From positions 1 through 64,000 of the forward strand of contig SVQC01000005.1 in assembly GCA_015065585.1 (NCBI GenBank): DNA of 64,000 nt. The letters are read 5' to 3'. Below the pieces are notes generated by a model. That model saw only the letters and a program-made list of their open reading frames with translations. It was not told where the DNA came from and did no database searches. This document shows positions 40,623 to 50,711 of the stretch, in pieces (position 1 is the stretch's first letter; each line of letters starts with the position of its first letter). The position numbers were made by a program, and so were the translations under genes. The DNA comes from Oscillospiraceae bacterium. Its GTDB lineage: Bacteria > Bacillota > Clostridia > Oscillospirales > Acutalibacteraceae.

Positions 40623-40656
40623 AAGACATCTTCTTTTTAGAAGATGTCTTTTTTTA
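40623..40656 (+). terminator. Terminator of aspS
   Basis: Stem AAGACATCTTCT/AGAAGATGTCTT, 4-nt loop, then TTTTT. Confidence 0.9.
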
Positions 40657-40857: not shown

Positions 40858-41124
40858 ATGAAAAGTGAAAACCTAAAAAACGAAATGTTACAGTTACTTT
40901 CTCAGTCCTTGCCACAGGAGGAAAAATCCTCGCTTAAAGAGGAGGGTTTTAAATTTAAGAACCCCACAAGAACCTCCTGCATTGTTGCGGCTTTATACAG
41001 AAAAGCCGCCGGCGGCGATATGTCGGCAATAAAAGAAATACTAAACATTATTTCTGACAGCGCCGCCGAAAAATGCGACGGGGAGGTGACCATTATAGAC
41101 GATGTACGAAATAAAGGTAGCTGA
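40858..41124 (+). CDS. Small terminase-like phage protein
   Basis: 88 aa. Helical and charged, with the stretch NPTRTSCIVAALYRKAAGGDMSAIKEI resembling the short DNA-binding or assembly part of small terminase/DUF5681-type proteins. Position directly before the large terminase, overlapping it by 23 nt, supports a packaging role. Shorter than usual small terminase subunits, so the DNA-recognition domain could be reduced. GAAGGAATGTG precedes the ATG. Confidence 0.6.
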   Translation: MKSENLKNEMLQLLSQSLPQEEKSSLKEEGFKFKNPTRTSCIVAALYRKAAGGDMSAIKEILNIISDSAAEKCDGEVTIIDDVRNKGS

Positions 41125-42376
41125 CCTTATAGGTAAGGGCTATGACGATTTCTGGAACTGCGAAAAACGATACCGTGTCCTTAAAGGCGGTAAGGGCAGT
41201 AAAAAATCCAGCGTTACCGCCCTTAATCTTATCTATCGCCTTATGAAATATCCGAAGTCTAATCTTTTGGTAATCCGCGCGGTAATGAACACCCACAGAA
41301 ATTCTACCTTTGCGGTTCTTTCGTGGGCGCAAAAACAACTAAGGGTCGAAAAACTATGGAGTAACAGCCTATCAAATATGGAAATGACCTATCTTCCTAC
41401 GGGACAGAAAATTATTTTCAGAGGGACCGACGATGTACTGAAGCTTGCGGGATTAACCGTTGACACAGGTTACATTAACTTTGTGTGGATTGAAGAAGCC
41501 TTCGAGATTACTAAGGAGGAGGATTTTGACAAGCTTGACCTTACAGTCCCCCGCGGAAAGCTTTCTGACGGTCTTTTTAAGCAGACCACAATAACCTTTA
41601 ATCCGTGGAGCAGTGAGCATTGGCTGAAACGAAGATTTTTTGACATTGAGAGCGACTCAGCCCAAGTTTTTACCACTAATTATTTGTGCAACGAATTCCT
41701 TGATGATACCGACCGACTTGTTTTCGAGCGTATGAAAAAAAACAATGCAAGAAAATATGCCGTTGCCGGTCTTGGTGAATGGGGAGTTGCAGAAGGACTT
41801 GTTTTTGAAAACTGGTCGGTAGAGCACCGGAAAATCACCTCAAACGGTACTTGGAAAGCCTTTTTTGGACTTGATTACGGCTACACCAATGACCCCACCG
41901 CCTTTATTGCCTTTTATGTTAACCCTAAAACTATGGAAATACATATTTTTGACGAGTTTTATAAAACGCGAATGTTAAACTCGGATATCGCGAGGGAAAT
42001 AAAGAAGCGAGGTTTTTCAAAGGAAAGAATACGAGCCGATTCTGCCGAACCTAAATCAAACGAGGACCTTCGCCGAATGGGCATCTCCCGAATCTTGCCT
42101 GCTTCAAAAGGCGCAGACAGTATACTGAACGGTATTTCAAGAATAAGCGAATATAAAATTACCGTTGAACCCCACTGCATTCACGCGGTAGCCGAGCTTA
42201 ACAGCTACCACTACAAAACTGATGCTAACAGCAATCCGAAAAGGCTCCCCGAGGACAGCGATAATCACCTGATGGACGCTTTAAGGTATGCCTTTGAGGA
42301 CGTTAAATATTTTAAGGAGGATAGCAAGGCTTACTCATACAGTGATAATTCCTTGCTTCTTAAAGAATGGATATAA
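41102..42376 (+). CDS. terL: Phage terminase large subunit
   Basis: 424 aa, PBSX/Terminase_3-type packaging motor. ATPase half: Walker A-like GGKGSKKSS (about residue 28) and Walker B VWIEEAFE (about 128). Nuclease half: GLDYGYTNDPT (about 256), RADSAEPKSNEDL (about 310) and DNHLMDALRY (about 387), the three acidic clusters of the RNase-H fold. All key residues appear present, so the motor may be active. It pumps and cuts DNA into the capsid through the portal. Codon use is like that of the neighbouring host genes. Confidence 0.93.
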   Translation: MYEIKVADLIGKGYDDFWNCEKRYRVLKGGKGSKKSSVTALNLIYRLMKYPKSNLLVIRAVMNTHRNSTFAVLSWAQKQLRVEKLWSNSLSNMEMTYLPTGQKIIFRGTDDVLKLAGLTVDTGYINFVWIEEAFEITKEEDFDKLDLTVPRGKLSDGLFKQTTITFNPWSSEHWLKRRFFDIESDSAQVFTTNYLCNEFLDDTDRLVFERMKKNNARKYAVAGLGEWGVAEGLVFENWSVEHRKITSNGTWKAFFGLDYGYTNDPTAFIAFYVNPKTMEIHIFDEFYKTRMLNSDIAREIKKRGFSKERIRADSAEPKSNEDLRRMGISRILPASKGADSILNGISRISEYKITVEPHCIHAVAELNSYHYKTDANSNPKRLPEDSDNHLMDALRYAFEDVKYFKEDSKAYSYSDNSLLLKEWI

Positions 42377-42582
42377 CAGCTTTAATATTTATTATTGCCC
42401 TTAATATTGCCGCCTTTTTGGTGGGAATTCTTTTGGGAAGACTTTACCGTCTTAATAAAAACCACAGTTTTGGGCGAAAAAAATGTTCAAACACAAAAAA
42501 CGCCGATTGGCTTTTGCTTATGAACTACTATCCCGACGAACCGACAGAAATTCTGTCTTCAAATAAAAATAAAAGGAGATAA
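42367..42582 (+). CDS. Small membrane protein of the phage cassette
   Basis: 71 aa. One N-terminal membrane helix (about residues 4-24) followed by a basic, then polar cytoplasmic tail (ADWLLLMNYYPDEPTEIL). It overlaps terL by 10 nt and ends 2 nt before the scaffold-like gene. No family is recognised. Translation is coupled to terL, so it probably belongs to the cassette. Confidence 0.65.
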   Translation: MDITALIFIIALNIAAFLVGILLGRLYRLNKNHSFGRKKCSNTKNADWLLLMNYYPDEPTEILSSNKNKRR

Positions 42583-42584
42583 AA

Positions 42585-43184
42585 ATGGAAGAAACAAATA
42601 AAATTTTGACGGAAGCCGAAAATCCCGCTTCCGAGGACCCCTTTATTCCTGTTAAGTTTAACAAGGAAACACGAAATCTTACTGTCAGCGAGGCTTCATG
42701 TCTTTCCCAAAAGGGACTCAAGTACGATGCAATTTCTCCACAGTGGGAAAAGCTGAAGCTTTTTGCGAGACAGGAAAATATGAGTACCGCTCAGTTTCTG
42801 GACGCGCTAGAGAAAGAGAGAACACAAAGAAAAACAGAAGAGCTCACACGTCAGTGCGGCGGAAACAGCGATATGGCAAAGCGGATAATGGAACTTGAGG
42901 GAGTAAAAGAGGAGGTTATTCGCGGAGAAAAAGATTTCAAAGAGTATTTTCCCCATAAATCCACCGACTCTCTTCCCTCGGAGGTCCTTGACCGCGTAAA
43001 AGAAAATAACTCCAATCTGCTTGACGAATATCTCAGATATAAGGCAAGAAATGAAAATGTTAAACGCGCAGAGGAAAAACAGCTAAGGGAAAATCTTTTA
43101 AGTTCTGTCGGTTCGCAAAAGGACAGCGGAATTTCCCGCACAGAAGAAAGCCGCGAATTTATACGCGGTATATGGAACTCATAA
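42585..43184 (+). CDS. Phage scaffold-like protein
   Basis: 199 aa, highly charged and mostly helical, with no hydrophobic core sequence. Immediately before the major capsid gene. The N-terminal FNKETRNLTVSEASCLSQKGLKYDAI and following STAQFLDALEKE match the style of tailed-phage scaffolding proteins; the C-terminal half is a long predicted coiled coil (about 95-185). Scaffolds guide capsid assembly and then leave. Assigned mainly on position and composition. AAGGAG is at the ribosome binding site. Confidence 0.7.
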   Translation: MEETNKILTEAENPASEDPFIPVKFNKETRNLTVSEASCLSQKGLKYDAISPQWEKLKLFARQENMSTAQFLDALEKERTQRKTEELTRQCGGNSDMAKRIMELEGVKEEVIRGEKDFKEYFPHKSTDSLPSEVLDRVKENNSNLLDEYLRYKARNENVKRAEEKQLRENLLSSVGSQKDSGISRTEESREFIRGIWNS

Positions 43185-43207
43185 AAACAAAAGGAGATTA
43201 AAAAATT

Positions 43208-44383
43208 ATGGCTATCAACAATTTAGAAAATGCTACTGTTTACAGCGAAGAGCTTGACCGTCTTTTTACACAGAAAAGCGCTACCGGCTTCTTCGCAGAC
43301 AACACCTTCGGCGCCCGTTTTGTAGGCGCCAAAACGGTTATCGTTCCTGATATTGATTTTCAGGGCCTTGCCGATTATGACCGTGACAACGGTTTTACCC
43401 GTGGCGCTATCACCGTATCCAATACCTCTTACACTATGAAGATGGACCGCGCCCGTTCTTTGCAGATTGACCGTGAAGACCTTGATGAAACCGGCGTTGC
43501 GAATCTTGCAGGTAAGATTCTTGGCGAATATGTTCGCACCAAGGTTATTCCCGAGTGTGACGCTTATGTTCTTTCAAAGCTTTCCACTCTTGCAGAATCC
43601 AGAGGCAACACAGTTAACGGCGACAAAAACGCTCCGTACTCTGTTCTTGTTTCCCTTATTAACAACGTTCAGGAAAACGTAGGTTATGACACCGAGCTTG
43701 TTGCTTTTATCGACAGCTGTATGTACGCTCAGCTTATGAACTCTGCTGAAATTTCTAAAATGATTACCCTTTCTGACTTCAAGCAGGGAGAAATCAATCT
43801 TCAGGTAAAAACCCTTAACGGCGTTGCCCTTATCCCTGTTGTAAGCGAAAGAATGAAATCTGCTTACAATTTTGAAACCGGTGCTGCAGGCGGTTTTGCT
43901 CCCGCGGATACCGCTAAGGAAATTTATATGCTTGTTTGTCCCAAGGACGGCGCTCATCTTATGAAGAAAACCGAAAATATGCGTATTTTTACCCCCGAAC
44001 AGAATCCTGATGCCGACGCTTTTAAGTTTGACTACCGTATTTATTACGACGTATTCGTAAAGAAAAGCGGTCTTGATGCTGTATGGGCTTGGTTTTCTCC
44101 GGAAATAAAAATTTCTGCTCAGCCTGAGAATCTTGTTGTAAACGAGGGAAGCATTGACGAAACCCTTACCGTAACCGCCGAGGCTGAAGGCGAAGAAATC
44201 ACTTACCAGTGGTTTAAATGTGACTCCGCCGGTAAAAATGCCGTAAAGGTAGTCGGCGCCACCTCTGCCACACTTACTCTTGACGAGAATCTTGAGTGCG
44301 GCGACCATTACTTCTATGCTTTAATTACCGTAGACGGTCTTGCAAAACAGAAGTCTGGCGTGGCTAAAATTACCGTAATCTGA
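43208..44383 (+). CDS. Major capsid protein with C-terminal Ig-like domain
   Basis: 391 aa. Residues 1 to about 300 fit an HK97-type major capsid: an N-terminal arm, SYTMKMDRARSLQIDREDLDET, a central A-domain region and IYYDVFVKKSGLDAVWAWF. Residues about 302-391 form a separate Ig-like beta-sandwich (ISAQPENLVV, ITYQWFKCDSAGKNAV, GATSATLTL). Such appended Ig folds are displayed on capsid surfaces of gut phages and can bind glycans. Assigned from position after the scaffold and from sequence character. The shell needs about hundreds of copies, and AAAGGAG upstream is a strong ribosome binding site. Confidence 0.85.
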   Translation: MAINNLENATVYSEELDRLFTQKSATGFFADNTFGARFVGAKTVIVPDIDFQGLADYDRDNGFTRGAITVSNTSYTMKMDRARSLQIDREDLDETGVANLAGKILGEYVRTKVIPECDAYVLSKLSTLAESRGNTVNGDKNAPYSVLVSLINNVQENVGYDTELVAFIDSCMYAQLMNSAEISKMITLSDFKQGEINLQVKTLNGVALIPVVSERMKSAYNFETGAAGGFAPADTAKEIYMLVCPKDGAHLMKKTENMRIFTPEQNPDADAFKFDYRIYYDVFVKKSGLDAVWAWFSPEIKISAQPENLVVNEGSIDETLTVTAEAEGEEITYQWFKCDSAGKNAVKVVGATSATLTLDENLECGDHYFYALITVDGLAKQKSGVAKITVI

Positions 44384-44457
44384 TAACTTTTACTACGGGG
44401 GAGAATGCGGAGGGTAAAACCTCCGCAATATCTTCCCTTCTTTTGAAAGGAAATATT

Positions 44458-45882
44458 ATGAACACCCCTAAAGAAATTATAAAAGAATATGAACATGCCC
44501 GTATGTTTAAAAATTCCCTCGGCAATAAAGGTCTTTACAGACAGAATGTTATAAATCGCCGTTTTTTTGCCGGCGACCAGTGGTACGGCGCTAACACAGG
44601 TTCAGACCGTCCCTTAGTCCGCCACAACATAATAAAGCGTATCGGCGAATATAAAACGGGTAGTTTGCTTGAAAACGATATAAGGATTGAATTTTCGGCA
44701 GAGGGCATTTCTTCTACCCTGCTTCAAAAGCAAAATACAAAGGATTTAAAGGCAAGTCTTTCAGCAGGAGAATATATTTTCAACAAGGATACCGACGAAA
44801 ACGAAATCCGCCTTTTAACCGACACCTTAAGTGATTATCTTGAGGTAGTAAAGAATAAACTCTGCTTTAAAGGCAAGCTTGCCGATATATTGAAAAACAG
44901 CTTTATTACCGGTACCGGAGTTCTATACACCTATTGGGATACTCTCGCCGCCGGAGGCAAAGGAGATATTGCCTGTGAGGTTTTACCTATTGAAAATCTT
45001 TATTTTGGCGACAGCTTTGAGGACTCGGTAGAAAATCAGCCCTATATAATTCTTGTTTCGGTGGTAAACACCGAAAAACTACGACGCACCGCCCAGGCCT
45101 TTGGGCTTAATCCCGACAGAATTATCTCTGACCGTCCCGATAACAAAACCGTTTTATACACTAAGCTTTACAAGGAATATGACGGTAGCTCTTATAAAAT
45201 TATGGCTGTTTCAGTTACCGAAAAAGCCTTCGTCCGCCCCGTTTACGACACCCATCTTACCCGTTATCCTATAAATATTCTTTGTTGGGATAAAAGAGAA
45301 AACTGTGTTTACGGGGAAAGCGAAATAACCCATTTACTTCCCAATCAGATTGCTATTAACCGTATGCTTACGGCAAACGTTTGGGCAAGTATGAGTATGG
45401 GTATGCCTATTATGACGGTTAACGGAGATACCGTTACGTCAGATATTACCAACGAGCCGGGGCAGATTATAAAGGTTTACGGCACTAACGAAGATGTCGC
45501 AGGGGCTATTCACTATATTACTCCCCCTGATTTCTCGGCTAATTTCGCAGAAGGCATATCCTCGCTCATTAAAAACACCCTTGACAGCAGCGGCGCGGGA
45601 ATTACTGATATTGAAAAGCTTTCATACAACAATACCGCTGCCGTAAAAAGCGTTATTGATACCTTTGGTATTTCTTCACAGTCCCTTAAAATCCGTTATG
45701 AAGCTTTTCTTGTTGACGTGGCTCTTTTATGGCTCGATTTCTTCATAAATAAATACGGAAAGAGAAACATTCACATTCAGGACGAAAACGGCTCCTGGTA
45801 TTTCCCCTTTGACAGCAACCGTTATTCCAAGCTTTCATTTCTGGCAAAGGCAATAAAGGAGGAAAAAAATGAAGCTGATTGA
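44458..45882 (+). CDS. Phage portal protein
   Basis: 474 aa from ATG 44458 (AAAGGAAATATT upstream). Portal features: RRFFAGDQW near the start, RHNIIKRIGEYKTGSL, a central wing domain (EVLPIENLYFGDSF), and a C-terminal crown (INRMLTANVWASMSMGMP, then ITDIEKLSYNNTAAVKSV). Closest in style to portals of short-tailed phages that enter the head through a 12-mer vertex. It overlaps the adaptor-like gene by 14 nt. A 74-nt gap follows the capsid gene and contains a small GGAG...CTCC hairpin. Confidence 0.88.
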   Translation: MNTPKEIIKEYEHARMFKNSLGNKGLYRQNVINRRFFAGDQWYGANTGSDRPLVRHNIIKRIGEYKTGSLLENDIRIEFSAEGISSTLLQKQNTKDLKASLSAGEYIFNKDTDENEIRLLTDTLSDYLEVVKNKLCFKGKLADILKNSFITGTGVLYTYWDTLAAGGKGDIACEVLPIENLYFGDSFEDSVENQPYIILVSVVNTEKLRRTAQAFGLNPDRIISDRPDNKTVLYTKLYKEYDGSSYKIMAVSVTEKAFVRPVYDTHLTRYPINILCWDKRENCVYGESEITHLLPNQIAINRMLTANVWASMSMGMPIMTVNGDTVTSDITNEPGQIIKVYGTNEDVAGAIHYITPPDFSANFAEGISSLIKNTLDSSGAGITDIEKLSYNNTAAVKSVIDTFGISSQSLKIRYEAFLVDVALLWLDFFINKYGKRNIHIQDENGSWYFPFDSNRYSKLSFLAKAIKEEKNEAD

Positions 45883-46201
45883 TTTTTATAACAAAGGACT
45901 TATTCTTGCGGGTCAGCAGGAAAATCAACAAATGGTTTTAAATGGTGAAGAACACGACAGGCTTTTCTTTATAAATCTTGCTCTTGCCGACCTTGAGCTA
46001 AAACCTGCCACCGATATTTTTGAAGAGCGCGAATTTTCCGTAAAGGTGGCCGATGCGCTTATTTACGGAATTGCTTATTTATTATCGGTACACTGCGGTT
46101 TTTACAGCACCTGCGCCTTTATAGCAAAAATATACAACGGCAAAAGAGCCTCCGTTTTAAACAAAAGTTCAAAAATAAAAGATACATTCAGCAATTTATG
46201 A
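45869..46201 (+). CDS. Head-tail adaptor-like protein
   Basis: 110 aa, helical: MKLIDFYNKGLILAG, ELKPATDIFEE, then VADALIYGIAYLLSVHCGFYSTCAF. Its length, helix content and position between portal and the large beta-rich protein match the adaptor (gp11/gp4-like) of short-tailed phages. Sequence alone is too divergent for a firm call. Coupled to the portal gene by overlap. Confidence 0.6.
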   Translation: MKLIDFYNKGLILAGQQENQQMVLNGEEHDRLFFINLALADLELKPATDIFEEREFSVKVADALIYGIAYLLSVHCGFYSTCAFIAKIYNGKRASVLNKSSKIKDTFSNL

Positions 46202-46211
46202 GGTGATTTAA

Positions 46212-48287
46212 ATGCGACTACCGGAATACGACCCAAATAGAGAAAGAAAATTTTTCATTACCCATCCCGACGGCACCATAACTAAGGCGCATCCCGTTTA
46301 TCATTCTGCCGACAAGCTTAACGACAGTCTTAACGTTTTTAACGAAACAGGAATTCTTACAACCCGAAAGGGTTTTCTTAAAACCAAAAACGGACATCTT
46401 GTTTCGGATATAACGGGTTGTGATAATTCTTCGGTATTTTATTCCGATTTCCCCTTTACAAAAATCTCCGGATATAATAAATTATGTATGGTGGTACGTG
46501 AATTCAGTGCGGGAATTACTTCTCTTGATTTTCTCGTTCTTGATGACGATGGTAATGCAAAGCATCTGTTTATGAAAACCCTTGCCTCAGCTACGGGCTA
46601 CACTATGTTCCAAATTATTAACGCTACCTTTATACCAAGCGTTGTAAACGGTGTGGAAAACCTTTATCTCGTTATGCCGCTTATCAGGGTTAACGTGAGA
46701 GACGGAACTACGGAAAAGGAAGTTCAATACTACCGTTTTAATGAGGATTTTTCGGATATTTACAGAGATAGCGGCAGAGACTTTTATATCCCGTTATTTA
46801 TGAAAAACGGCCACGGTAATGCAGTTATTGTAGAAGACCCGCTAGCCAGAACTCCGACTCAGTATCCCGAAGGCATTAACGTATTGAACGGCGCCTTTGA
46901 AGCCTGTTTTCACGTTGACGAGGCATCAGACCTATACTCTCTGCCTATAGCTATGGCAAAGGATTCTCCCGTGGAGATACATTATTATACCAGCACAGTC
47001 AGCTACAAAACCTTTAAAATAGGCGCTAACGAAACCGAATCGGATTCCCAGCCGCTGATGGATTATATGCTTTCCTTCAAAGTCGATAAGGAAACAGGCT
47101 CAATATATCCCTGCTGCAACGGTCAACGTTTTGCTTTACCCTGTTTTATTACAGACAATTCTCTTAGAATCTTTGCATATACTGATGTAGGGGATGACGC
47201 TTTTGAGATTTTAAGCCGACGAAGCGGACGAATTGCCTTCGACGGCAGATTTCTTATTCCAGGCGGCGAAGATAACGGAGGCAAAATTTATTATTCTGGT
47301 AAAAATCAGCCTCTGTATTTTGCAAAAGAAAACCACATTACTATTGGCGACAGCTTTGAGGAAATCACAGCTTTATCCAAGCAAAACCGTTATCTTATCG
47401 CCTTTAAAAAATCTGAAATTTATCGTCTTTCCTTAACCGAAACCACGCTTCCCGACCGAGAAGAAGCTCTTCACGATTTAAACTTTACGAAAATGCCTCA
47501 GCCTAAATGCACGGCGGTACGTATAAACAGCACTATAGGCTGTGACCGTCCCCTTACTATCGAAACCTGCGGAAACCGTCTTGTCTGGTATCACAGCTCC
47601 GGAAAGGTCTATACCCTTTACGGAAGCAATCTATATTCCGACGGAAGCGTTTATGAGCTTTCTTCCGAAATCAGCGACCGTCTTTCTTCATTAACGAGTG
47701 AAGAAAAGAGCGGTATCTTTGCCACAAAAATTATGGGACGGTACGCCCTTGTTACAAAGGACAACATATTCGTTATGGAATCCCTGGTCAGCGGATTTAC
47801 ATATCTTTCGGGGCATAAAACACCAAACAAGGATTATGGAGGTCTTTCATGGTTTTTATGGCAACCCCCTGAAAATATGACGCTTCTGTCCTCTTTTGAT
47901 ACCGGCGGAAAGGAATTCTTTATTCTATCCGATAAAAAAGGAAGTATGTATCATATAGCTATACTTTCGGGATATGAAGATACTATTTATTCAAAGATAG
48001 ACGGCAGTCAAAAAACTTCATATCCAAAATACAGTGTAACCTCATGCCTTTTCGGCGTTGATGACAAGCGTCCCGACCGCCTTAAATTTGATATTAATAT
48101 TGAATGGCCGGCTCAGGCAGAGGTTTTTGATATAAACGGCTACAGCAAAACCTACCGTGTAGGACCTTGCTGTAAATTCATTCAGTATATAATTCCCCTG
48201 TCCCGACCGAAAGGAAAAATCGGTCTAAAACTTTCGGGCGAAGGATTTTTCTCCCTTGAGTATATTTTCTGTTCGGTAACCGATTAA
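46212..48287 (+). CDS. Phage tail-nozzle/stabilisation-like protein
   Basis: 691 aa, beta-rich without membrane segments. Features recalling nozzle (tail tubular B) and stabilisation proteins of short-tailed phages are the N-terminal NVFNETGILTTRKGFLK, a central SGKNQPLYFAKENHITIGDSFEEIT followed by RYLIAFKKSEIYRLSL, and repeated Y(A/L)LV.KDNIFVM-type blades suggesting a beta-propeller. Such proteins form the exit tube beneath the portal. No fibre or spike gene follows it. Named from pattern and position, not from a database match. Confidence 0.6.
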   Translation: MRLPEYDPNRERKFFITHPDGTITKAHPVYHSADKLNDSLNVFNETGILTTRKGFLKTKNGHLVSDITGCDNSSVFYSDFPFTKISGYNKLCMVVREFSAGITSLDFLVLDDDGNAKHLFMKTLASATGYTMFQIINATFIPSVVNGVENLYLVMPLIRVNVRDGTTEKEVQYYRFNEDFSDIYRDSGRDFYIPLFMKNGHGNAVIVEDPLARTPTQYPEGINVLNGAFEACFHVDEASDLYSLPIAMAKDSPVEIHYYTSTVSYKTFKIGANETESDSQPLMDYMLSFKVDKETGSIYPCCNGQRFALPCFITDNSLRIFAYTDVGDDAFEILSRRSGRIAFDGRFLIPGGEDNGGKIYYSGKNQPLYFAKENHITIGDSFEEITALSKQNRYLIAFKKSEIYRLSLTETTLPDREEALHDLNFTKMPQPKCTAVRINSTIGCDRPLTIETCGNRLVWYHSSGKVYTLYGSNLYSDGSVYELSSEISDRLSSLTSEEKSGIFATKIMGRYALVTKDNIFVMESLVSGFTYLSGHKTPNKDYGGLSWFLWQPPENMTLLSSFDTGGKEFFILSDKKGSMYHIAILSGYEDTIYSKIDGSQKTSYPKYSVTSCLFGVDDKRPDRLKFDINIEWPAQAEVFDINGYSKTYRVGPCCKFIQYIIPLSRPKGKIGLKLSGEGFFSLEYIFCSVTD

Positions 48288-48303
48288 AAGAAAGGAGTTT
48301 CTT

Positions 48304-49434
48304 ATGAAACGAATACTTTGCATTTTACTGTCATCTGTTTTAATATTTCTGTGCGGTTGCGCTGAAAAAAATACCGTAACTGTGCCTATAGATAATAAAT
48401 CGGATTTTTTTGGAATATGGGTAACCTATGCCGAGCTTGAAAATGCAGCAAAGGGAGATTTCAAAGAGAATTTCAGTAAAATCTGCGAAAATGCAAAAAG
48501 TATTTCTGCAACTGCCCTCTTTGTACATATCCGTCCCTTTTGCGACAGCCCTTTTAAATCGGAATATTTTCCTCTTTGCTCTTATGCAAAGAATGCCGAC
48601 TATGATGTACTTGAAGTTATGACAGAGCTTTGTCACAAAAACGGTCTCGAATTTCACGGCTGGATAAACCCCTATAGAATTTCATCTACATATAAGACAA
48701 GCGATAATCCTATATCAAAGAATTCCGCTTTGCTTCTTTCTACCGAAACGGGCATTTATCTTGACCCTGCTCTTGCCGAAAACCGAAAGCTTATTATTGA
48801 CGGGGTAAGAGAGGTAGTTGAAAACTACGATATAGACGGTATACATTTTGACGATTACTTTTATCCTACCACAGATGAAGGTTGCGACAATAATAGTTAT
48901 AACGCCTATAAAAATTCAGTTTCTTCCCCTCTGCCCCGCGATGTTTGGCGAAGAACCAACGTAACCTTACTTATATCCGGTATTTCTTCCTACCTTAAAA
49001 GTCAGGATAAAAAGATTTGTTTTTCAGTAAGTCCTGCGGCGGATATAGAGCGAAATTATAATAATCTTTATGCCGATATAAAAAACTGGGTTGATGCAGA
49101 TTATCTTGATGCCGTTATCCCTCAGATTTATTTTGGCTTTGACTATCCTACAGAGAAATTCACTTTTGAACGGCTTTTACTCGATTGGATTAATCTTGTA
49201 GATTCTAAAACCAATCTATATATAGGCCTTGCCCCCTATAAGCTGAATACCGGGCAAAAGCCCGACTGCACGGAATGGAAAGGCGGCACTGATATTGTAG
49301 GCCGTCAAATCCGATGTCTTAAAAATCAGGGAGAGGTATCAGGCGCCGTTTTATTTTCCTATTCCTATATTTTTAAAGAAGCAACAGATTTTATTAAACA
49401 AAAAAATGAAATAGCAACCGCTATTAAGGAGTAA
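48304..49434 (+). CDS. GHL10-family glycoside hydrolase lipoprotein
   Basis: 376 aa. Lipoprotein signal with lipobox-type LFCGC-like end (IFLCGC, Cys about residue 19). One GHL10 (DUF187) TIM-barrel domain at about 37-360: FGIWVTYAEL, WINPYRIS (about 119), DGIHFDDYFYP (about 177, catalytic acidic pair) and PQIYFGFD (about 275). Relatives include YngK of B. subtilis and E. coli DigH, a lipoprotein that cleaves peptide-free (denuded) peptidoglycan glycans. It sits between the tail-nozzle-like protein and the holin-like gene, the usual endolysin place. Whether it is phage lysis machinery or a host enzyme captured in the cassette is open. Confidence 0.88.
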   Translation: MKRILCILLSSVLIFLCGCAEKNTVTVPIDNKSDFFGIWVTYAELENAAKGDFKENFSKICENAKSISATALFVHIRPFCDSPFKSEYFPLCSYAKNADYDVLEVMTELCHKNGLEFHGWINPYRISSTYKTSDNPISKNSALLLSTETGIYLDPALAENRKLIIDGVREVVENYDIDGIHFDDYFYPTTDEGCDNNSYNAYKNSVSSPLPRDVWRRTNVTLLISGISSYLKSQDKKICFSVSPAADIERNYNNLYADIKNWVDADYLDAVIPQIYFGFDYPTEKFTFERLLLDWINLVDSKTNLYIGLAPYKLNTGQKPDCTEWKGGTDIVGRQIRCLKNQGEVSGAVLFSYSYIFKEATDFIKQKNEIATAIKE

Positions 49435-49437
49435 AAA

Positions 49438-49695
49438 ATGAAATACAGTATCTCAAAAGGTACTATTGTCAGAACTATTATGGTTTTTATCGTTATAATT
49501 AATATAGTTTTAGAAAAGCTGGGTCTTGATATTATAAACACAAACGAAAGCGCCGTGGCAGGCATTGTAGAGGTTATTATTGAGGTTGGCTCGATTATAG
49601 CTTCCTGGTGGTACAACAACAGTTATACCGAGCTTGCCCGTAAAGCCGACAGGTTTTTTGCCGCTTGTAAGGACCTTGAAAAAACAGAGAATTGA
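49438..49695 (+). CDS. Phage holin-like protein
   Basis: 85 aa. Two hydrophobic segments (about 9-30 and 40-62) with AGIVEVIIEVGSIIASWWYNNSYTELARKAD, the pattern of SPP1-type phage holins. Holins open the inner membrane. It starts 3 nt after the GHL10 stop, so the two genes are co-translated. The last gene of the cassette; its stop overlaps a possible promoter for manA. Confidence 0.82.
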   Translation: MKYSISKGTIVRTIMVFIVIINIVLEKLGLDIINTNESAVAGIVEVIIEVGSIIASWWYNNSYTELARKADRFFAACKDLEKTEN

Positions 49696-49720
49696 CAAAA
49701 CGTACTTATAAATGTAAAAT
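49692..49720 (+). promoter_or_regulatory. Possible promoter before manA
   Basis: TTGACA (49692-49697), 17 nt, TAAAAT (49715-49720). A terminator-like hairpin follows at once, so it may be an attenuated leader or a chance match. Confidence 0.45.
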
Positions 49721-49766: not shown

Positions 49767-50711
49767 ATGAGTGAAATTTTAAAACTTAAACCCGCCTTTA
49801 AGGATTATCTTTGGGGAGGTCAATACCTAAAGAAAAAATACTGTGTTTGTGATATGGAAAAGGTTGCTGAGGCTTGGGTGCTTTCTACCCATAGGGACGG
49901 TCATTCCATAGTTTGCGGCGGAAGGTATGACGGTATGACCCTTAGTGAAGCTGTGGCTAATATGGGGGATACCGCCCTTGGAAGCAAAGCCGCGGCTTTT
50001 GAAATGTTTCCTCAGATGATAAAAATCATTGATGCAGAGCAAAGCCTTTCCTTGCAGGTACACCCCAGCGATGAGTACGCCCTTAAAAACGAGGGACAGT
50101 ACGGAAAAACGGAAATGTGGTATATTCTTGACGCTAAAGAAGGCGCAGGTATATACTACGGCGTAAAGGAAGAAATAACTAAGGAGCAGCTTAAAAATGC
50201 CATCGCCACAAACACGGTAGAGGACATTCTTAATTTTGCACCCTGCACCGCGGGAGAGAGCTATTTTATCCCCTCGGGGACCCTTCACGCTATTGGCGCA
50301 GGTCTGCTTATCGCCGAGGTACAACAAAACTCTAACGTTACCTACCGCGTTTACGATTACGGCAGAGTCGGTGCTGACGGCAAACCCCGCGAGCTTCATA
50401 TTGAAAAAGCCTTAAAGGTTTCCGACCTTTCTCCCGTAAAAGCGGAGGCCGAAAAGACCTCTGTTAAAAAGGACGATGCGGATTTAACCACCCTTTCAAG
50501 ATGTCCTTATTTTACGGCCGTAAAAGCGGTTGTTAACGGAAATTACCGAATCACCCCCAAGGATAGCTTCATGTCAGTGCTTATCACAAAAGGCGACGGC
50601 GAAATTGACGGTAAGCCTTTCTCGCTTTTTGATACATTCTTTATCCCAGCCGATACACACTCGGTTACCCTTTCGGGTGATTTTGAAGCCGTTATAACAT
50701 ATTGTGAATAA
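49767..50711 (+). CDS. manA: Mannose-6-phosphate isomerase (class I)
   Basis: 314 aa from ATG 49767, with GGAGAA 8 nt upstream; an in-frame upstream ATG lies in the promoter/terminator region. Cupin fold with the zinc site: SLQVHPSDEYA (Gln-x-His), the E of KTEMWY, and IPSGTLHAIGAG (His). Interconverts mannose-6-P and fructose-6-P, supplying mannose derivatives for surface glycans. Bacterial short-type class I length. Confidence 0.95.
   Translation: MSEILKLKPAFKDYLWGGQYLKKKYCVCDMEKVAEAWVLSTHRDGHSIVCGGRYDGMTLSEAVANMGDTALGSKAAAFEMFPQMIKIIDAEQSLSLQVHPSDEYALKNEGQYGKTEMWYILDAKEGAGIYYGVKEEITKEQLKNAIATNTVEDILNFAPCTAGESYFIPSGTLHAIGAGLLIAEVQQNSNVTYRVYDYGRVGADGKPRELHIEKALKVSDLSPVKAEAEKTSVKKDDADLTTLSRCPYFTAVKAVVNGNYRITPKDSFMSVLITKGDGEIDGKPFSLFDTFFIPADTHSVTLSGDFEAVITYCE

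Follow-up and report, generated by a model that had tools for sequence, protein, structure and literature searches.

Very few gene transfer agents (GTAs) are known outside the Alphaproteobacteria. FpGTA of Faecalibacterium (Borodovich et al. 2026) is an experimentally supported one and was reported as the first that is podovirus-like (PMC12946183). Its particles measure about 40 nm and carry host DNA fragments of 8.4–8.9 kb, and it was present in all Faecalibacterium genomes examined in that paper (PMC12946183). RcGTA of Rhodobacter capsulatus is siphovirus-like and comes from a Gram-negative host. PBSX of Bacillus subtilis is a phage-like element of a Gram-positive bacterium that packages host DNA and is described as not injecting it (PMC12946183). 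The PBSX tail is long and contractile.

We analysed a window of 64,000 nucleotides from an Oscillospiraceae genome and found that a ten-gene cassette at 40858–49695 resembles all three systems in part. Like FpGTA I/II it is podovirus-like and encodes TerL, portal, scaffold, capsid and a TerS without an obvious DNA-binding domain; FpGTA too forms an operon of about 10 kb without replication genes (PMC12946183). Fibres and lysis genes of FpGTA lie at a second locus, and relatives of our cassette in genus g233 likewise have a separate fibre locus, similar to FpGTA II. The cassette differs from FpGTA in its Ig-fused capsid and apparently in its order, scaffold-capsid-portal, whereas that of FpGTA is probably portal-scaffold-capsid, as inferred from accession numbers (capsid RCH50849, portal RCH50851). 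Moreover, FpGTA is backed by particle and DNA evidence, whereas the cassette has none. With RcGTA it shares a host-kept head-packaging cluster and apparently a TerS without an N-terminal HTH (PMC6854486), but RcGTA has no T7-type nozzle module and its regulation is not comparable. The cassette TerL scores above the cut-off for TIGR01547, the PBSX family large terminase, although a T7-type nozzle is encoded here in place of a long contractile tail.

We consider it likely (probability roughly 0.8) that the cassette is a domesticated, vertically inherited, podovirus-type GTA-like element that packages host DNA. Packaging and transfer are inferred, as no expression, particle or packaged-DNA data exist.

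Gene content and boundaries of the cassette

All ten open reading frames are intact, lie on the plus strand and overlap or nearly abut; no integrase, repressor or replication gene is among them. Both observations agree with an earlier note on this locus, which had also reported that lysogeny genes are absent. In order, the features are as follows.

40623–40650, plus strand: intrinsic terminator of aspS (12-pair stem and T run)
40858–41124, plus strand: TerS-like small terminase, 88 aa, preceding TerL (phrog_2412, 1e-4; weak DUF5681)
41102–42376, plus strand: TerL, large terminase with ATPase and RNase H-like nuclease (Terminase_3, 2.5e-46; Terminase_3C, 9e-25; TIGR01547, 1e-50)
42367–42582, plus strand: g3, one-TM protein of 71 aa with a single hydrophobic N-terminal segment (profile relatives in 70/73 loci)
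42585–43184, plus strand: scaffold-like protein, 199 aa, preceding the capsid (profile relatives in 72/73 loci and in prophages)
43208–44383, plus strand: major capsid protein with C-terminal Ig-like domain (phrog_422, 3e-73 over residues 3–296)
44458–45882, plus strand: portal protein (phrog_332, 6e-14; phrog_156, 2e-13; Head-tail_con, 0.003)
45869–46201, plus strand: head-tail adaptor-like protein, 110 aa (position; all-helical AlphaFold model, pLDDT 86)
46212–48287, plus strand: predicted podovirus tail nozzle, beta-rich, T7 gp12-like, 691 aa (AlphaFold, pLDDT 79, and Foldseek)
48304–49434, plus strand: GHL10 lipoprotein, lipobox LCGC (PF02638, 6.6e-43)
49438–49695, plus strand: SPP1-type holin (Holin_SPP1), 85 aa (PF04688, 2.5e-18)
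49692–49720, plus strand: promoter-like site for manA, immediately following the holin gene (TTGACA-17-TAAAAT, 11/12)

The aspS terminator, which the earlier note had announced and which we could place, would isolate the cassette on its upstream side, as far as can be judged from sequence alone. Two start codons given previously had to be corrected: for the portal, ATG 44458 is preferred over TTG 44443, and manA, which has a promoter-like site of its own at 49692, begins near 49767.

No HTH DNA-binding domain was recognisable in the cassette TerS by family searches; its relatives were detected in 63/73 loci. Two integrase-bearing phage relatives carry a clear HTH TerS (PF13022, 7e-25 and 1e-15). 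The HTH-less type is also present in one phage-like locus (L233 of genome G201), and because of this we downgraded it as proof of a GTA or of non-specific packaging. The Walker A motif of TerL reads GGK[GA]SKKS, and the first nuclease motif was found in 61/64 relatives. Gene g3 invariably sits between TerL and the scaffold, and it is kept in 70 of the 73 loci despite fast sequence change (dN/dS about 0.75 in close pairs).

The scaffold-like protein had no family match, and its identity is inferred from position and relatives. The fused Ig-like domain of the capsid, overlooked in the earlier note, spans approximately residues 300–391 (Ig_3, 7.5e-4 over 301–359), and a motif of this region is retained in 71/72 loci. 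Portal relatives occur in all 73 loci. Profile searches of the PDB with alignments of capsid and portal found nothing.

For the adaptor, a Foldseek search returned nothing significant, so that the assignment rests only on position and the predicted all-helical fold. The nozzle likewise lacked a family match and had no match in the phage collection. Its predicted model, however, matched tail or nozzle chains of E1004, PhiM1 and T7 in the PDB (Foldseek, E 6e-17 to 1e-14), and we regard its identity as confirmed by fold at the level of a model. The nozzle-like call made earlier thus held, and the suggestion of a "tailless" capsid was only partly right, since a T7-type nozzle is encoded.

The genome has only one GHL10 gene, and the family is also found in the E. 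coli control genome. Denuded peptidoglycan strands are degraded by E. coli DigH (PMC12288456), which we take to be YddW, a GHL10 protein. Genes following the nozzle in relatives comprise GHL10 (46 loci), small holins, a SPOR-domain amidase, or NlpC/P60 with SH3; the lysis genes interchange, an amidase or NlpC/P60 replacing or joining GHL10. Because SPOR-domain amidases fill the same slot, it is reasonable to infer that GHL10 may be the wall hydrolase for particle release, a role that remains untested.

Distribution, inheritance and selection

Seventy loci were retrieved. The order TerS-TerL-g3-scaffold-capsid-portal-adaptor-nozzle is constant across them, genes beyond the nozzle vary, and the eight core genes are complete in 50/53 loci when those cut by a contig end are left out. 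In a few relatives the adaptor and nozzle are absent or the genes are rearranged (L131, L184). In L184 we considered whether the inverted nozzle-adaptor-portal fragment is an invertible module, but it has no 18-base inverted repeats and is probably an assembly chimera. No integrase was recognised near the relatives' cassettes; the neighbours are housekeeping genes common to the members of each subclade. The position differs between subclades, and close relatives retain the same flanks.

The cassette is not unique to one strain. A scan of named genomes gave seven contigs, all from metagenome-assembled genomes (herbivore gut or Oscillospiraceae). In the own genus (g1) it adjoins manA in 3/3 genomes, one relative keeping the aspS side too. 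The sister genus g75 (70 species genomes) yielded 56 full-length matches to the Ig-capsid, of which two or more belong to prophages and not to cassettes. Among its good-quality genomes the fusion occurs in 32/39 (31 full cassettes and 1 partial match, by manual count in the match table); the remaining 7/39 showed no Ig-capsid cassette match. A family-wide search added three carrier genera (g233, g211, g275) and two outliers (g215, represented by G508, and g78), which lie outside the main host clade, are possibly separate cases and were left out of the core claim. Other genera of the family have only prophage-type capsids without Ig, and most carrier genomes gave no second, prophage-type capsid match.

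In a host tree of 52 family genomes, for which 23 further ones were added, the 25 carriers from the five main genera form a single clade (support 0.966). It is worth noting that genomes for this tree were picked as carriers, so it addresses monophyly and not frequency. A tree of TerL, capsid and portal from 29 genomes recovers 18/19 well-supported polA splits. Since the carriers group into a single host clade and their cassette tree agrees with polA, the cassette is inherited vertically. TerL sequences of the cassettes group as a single clade in their tree, with modest support (0.647); in the trees of capsid and portal, cassette and phage copies are less cleanly resolved from each other.

In the closest pairs, dN/dS was 0.03–0.12 for TerL, 0.006–0.15 for the capsid and 0.08–0.24 for the nozzle. 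These values are far below 1 and show purifying selection on the cassette. Codon use is host-like, as the earlier note had claimed: the RSCU correlation to the host is 0.939 (mean of host subsets 0.962), unlike that of a prophage in the same genome (0.789). In three of the four closest pairs (L141/L144, L130/L133, L171/L172), the dS value of the nozzle amounts to two to four times the TerL value. This suggests recombination at the tail gene, and we infer that nozzle genes were probably exchanged in this way.

Temperate relatives, proposed working and rival readings

The same genome (G000) carries a second, complete related temperate prophage, missed by the earlier note and split over contigs C30 and C44. 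It encodes an integrase, repressor-like genes, an HTH-type TerS, a reverse transcriptase, a 2694-aa protein and its own complete head-gene set, its TerL being 64% identical to that of the cassette. The reverse transcriptase (L033:14280–15347 on C30; RVT_1, 2e-15) possibly belongs to a diversity-generating retroelement. Genome G491 holds both a cassette and an integrase-bearing prophage with an Ig-capsid (C11). Kinship of the cassette to phages is shown: these two prophages and a third (G006:C59) have homologous TerL, scaffold, capsid, portal and nozzle genes in the same order, but they differ from the cassette in carrying an integrase, repressors or early genes, and fibres. An extra protein of 2694–2845 aa is encoded by the prophages of G000 and G491, whereas the cassette has no such large protein. 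The Ig fusion is found in only some family prophages, G491 having it and G006 not. The prophages of G000 and G491 are likely to be ancestor-like, having an integrase, a TerS of the HTH type and large additional tail proteins. Since such relatives are still extant, domestication can be followed step by step.

Fibre genes follow the nozzle directly in g275. In two g233 genomes they (Gp10_C; Mtd_N with collagen) stand alone at the same place, between genes that we take to be plsC and galT, on contigs apart from the cassette (L324:7843–10806, L325:5069–8210). No fibres of the g275 or g233 type were found outside prophages in g1 and in most g75 genomes tested, and a search of the own genome for Mtd_N gave none.

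Two criteria of a GTA are satisfied: phage-derived structural and packaging genes reside in the chromosome unaccompanied by genes for replication or integration, and they are inherited vertically under purifying selection. We propose that the cassette began as a temperate, short-tailed member of this phage family, captured close to the root of a host clade that comprises at least five genera; it would then have lost its lysogeny, replication and mobility genes while retaining those for head, packaging, connector, nozzle and lysis. The cassette would be expressed in some cells or conditions; scaffold and Ig-decorated capsid would assemble on the portal, and TerS/TerL would fill the heads with host DNA without phage-specific targeting. 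Adaptor and nozzle would seal the particle, and it would be released by the holin together with a wall hydrolase, presumably GHL10 in this genome and an amidase or NlpC/P60 in relatives. On paper such a particle would operate much as FpGTA does. Expression, non-specific packaging, release and delivery are all inferred. That the cassette is a selected, particle-forming DNA packager is very likely on this inference; that it delivers DNA and is a GTA in the strict sense we favour only by a narrow margin, since no receptor-binding fibre of known type was found outside prophages in the own genus and most tested g75 genomes. A bolder reading, against which we would lean slightly, is that of an independent podovirus-type GTA lineage apart from FpGTA, in which g1 and g75 dropped classical fibres and lysins and replaced them with the Ig-decorated capsid, a fast-recombining nozzle and the GHL10 wall hydrolase.

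The rival that remains possible is a domesticated particle that carries or packages DNA without delivering it, for example a killing or decoy particle of the PBSX kind, or a device for lysis and DNA release. The failure to find fibres of the g275/g233 type in the own genus and most tested g75 genomes speaks for it, as do the lack of a large internal protein like the 2694-aa one of the related prophage and the precedent of PBSX, whose packaged DNA is not injected (PMC12946183). Against it stand the retention of nozzle and adaptor and the purifying selection seen in the closest nozzle pairs; moreover, sister genera keep fibres, where useless delivery would predict their loss.

A helper-dependent satellite, that is, a capsid-forming island mobilised by a prophage such as that on C30 and C44, had been left as an option by the earlier note. 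A related full prophage is indeed present in the own genome, and the cassette position varies among subclades. We nevertheless regard a satellite as very unlikely: the block has no integrase, regulator or replication gene and none is conserved in its flanks, the cassette tree follows the host, close relatives share the same flanks, and most carrier genomes lack a detected prophage-type second capsid. A decaying prophage remnant would agree with the presence of only part of a phage genome and with the few incomplete or rearranged relatives, but it is all but excluded by open frames throughout, dN/dS far below 1 and a gene set common to five genera. Neither is the prophage on C30 and C44 the missing half of the block, as it has its own head genes (att sites were not compared). 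The earlier preference for a domesticated GTA-like particle over debris is therefore supported by conservation, by low dN/dS and by the failure to find a remainder of the same prophage.

On our reading the domestication has persisted while no fewer than five genera of gut Clostridia diverged. Should DNA be transferred, the cassette would keep a channel for gene flow permanently open in the gut communities of animals; should it not, the reason for its selective upkeep is a testable question.

Order-wide kin

A portal search across the order found related portals in 133/394 genomes from many families, mostly one per genome. In most of the cassettes we read there, portal, scaffold and capsid follow one another in this order, and fibre, holin and lysin genes come after them; these cassettes match our profiles only weakly. 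Representatives L294–L313 show TerL-portal-scaffold-capsid-adaptor-nozzle-fibre-holin-lysin between host genes and apparently belong to an order-wide FpGTA-like family. Such cassettes likely fit FpGTA better than the present one does, with the reservation that the FpGTA order is itself inferred. From the difference between this FpGTA-like gene order and that of our cassette we infer that related phages were likely domesticated at least twice, separately. The cassette would then be a second podovirus-like domestication, apparently separate from FpGTA, although no direct comparison with FpGTA sequences was made.

At L303:7304–8827 an intact portal gene of 507 aa appears to stand alone between host genes, with no other head genes recognised by profiles. 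Conserved siphovirus-like clusters also lie between host genes in family f26 (L224–L229; genera g109 and g175), with no integrase noticed; they contain TerL, portal, capsid, tail genes and a tape-measure-like protein of about 250 aa, and are possibly GTA-like with a very short tail.
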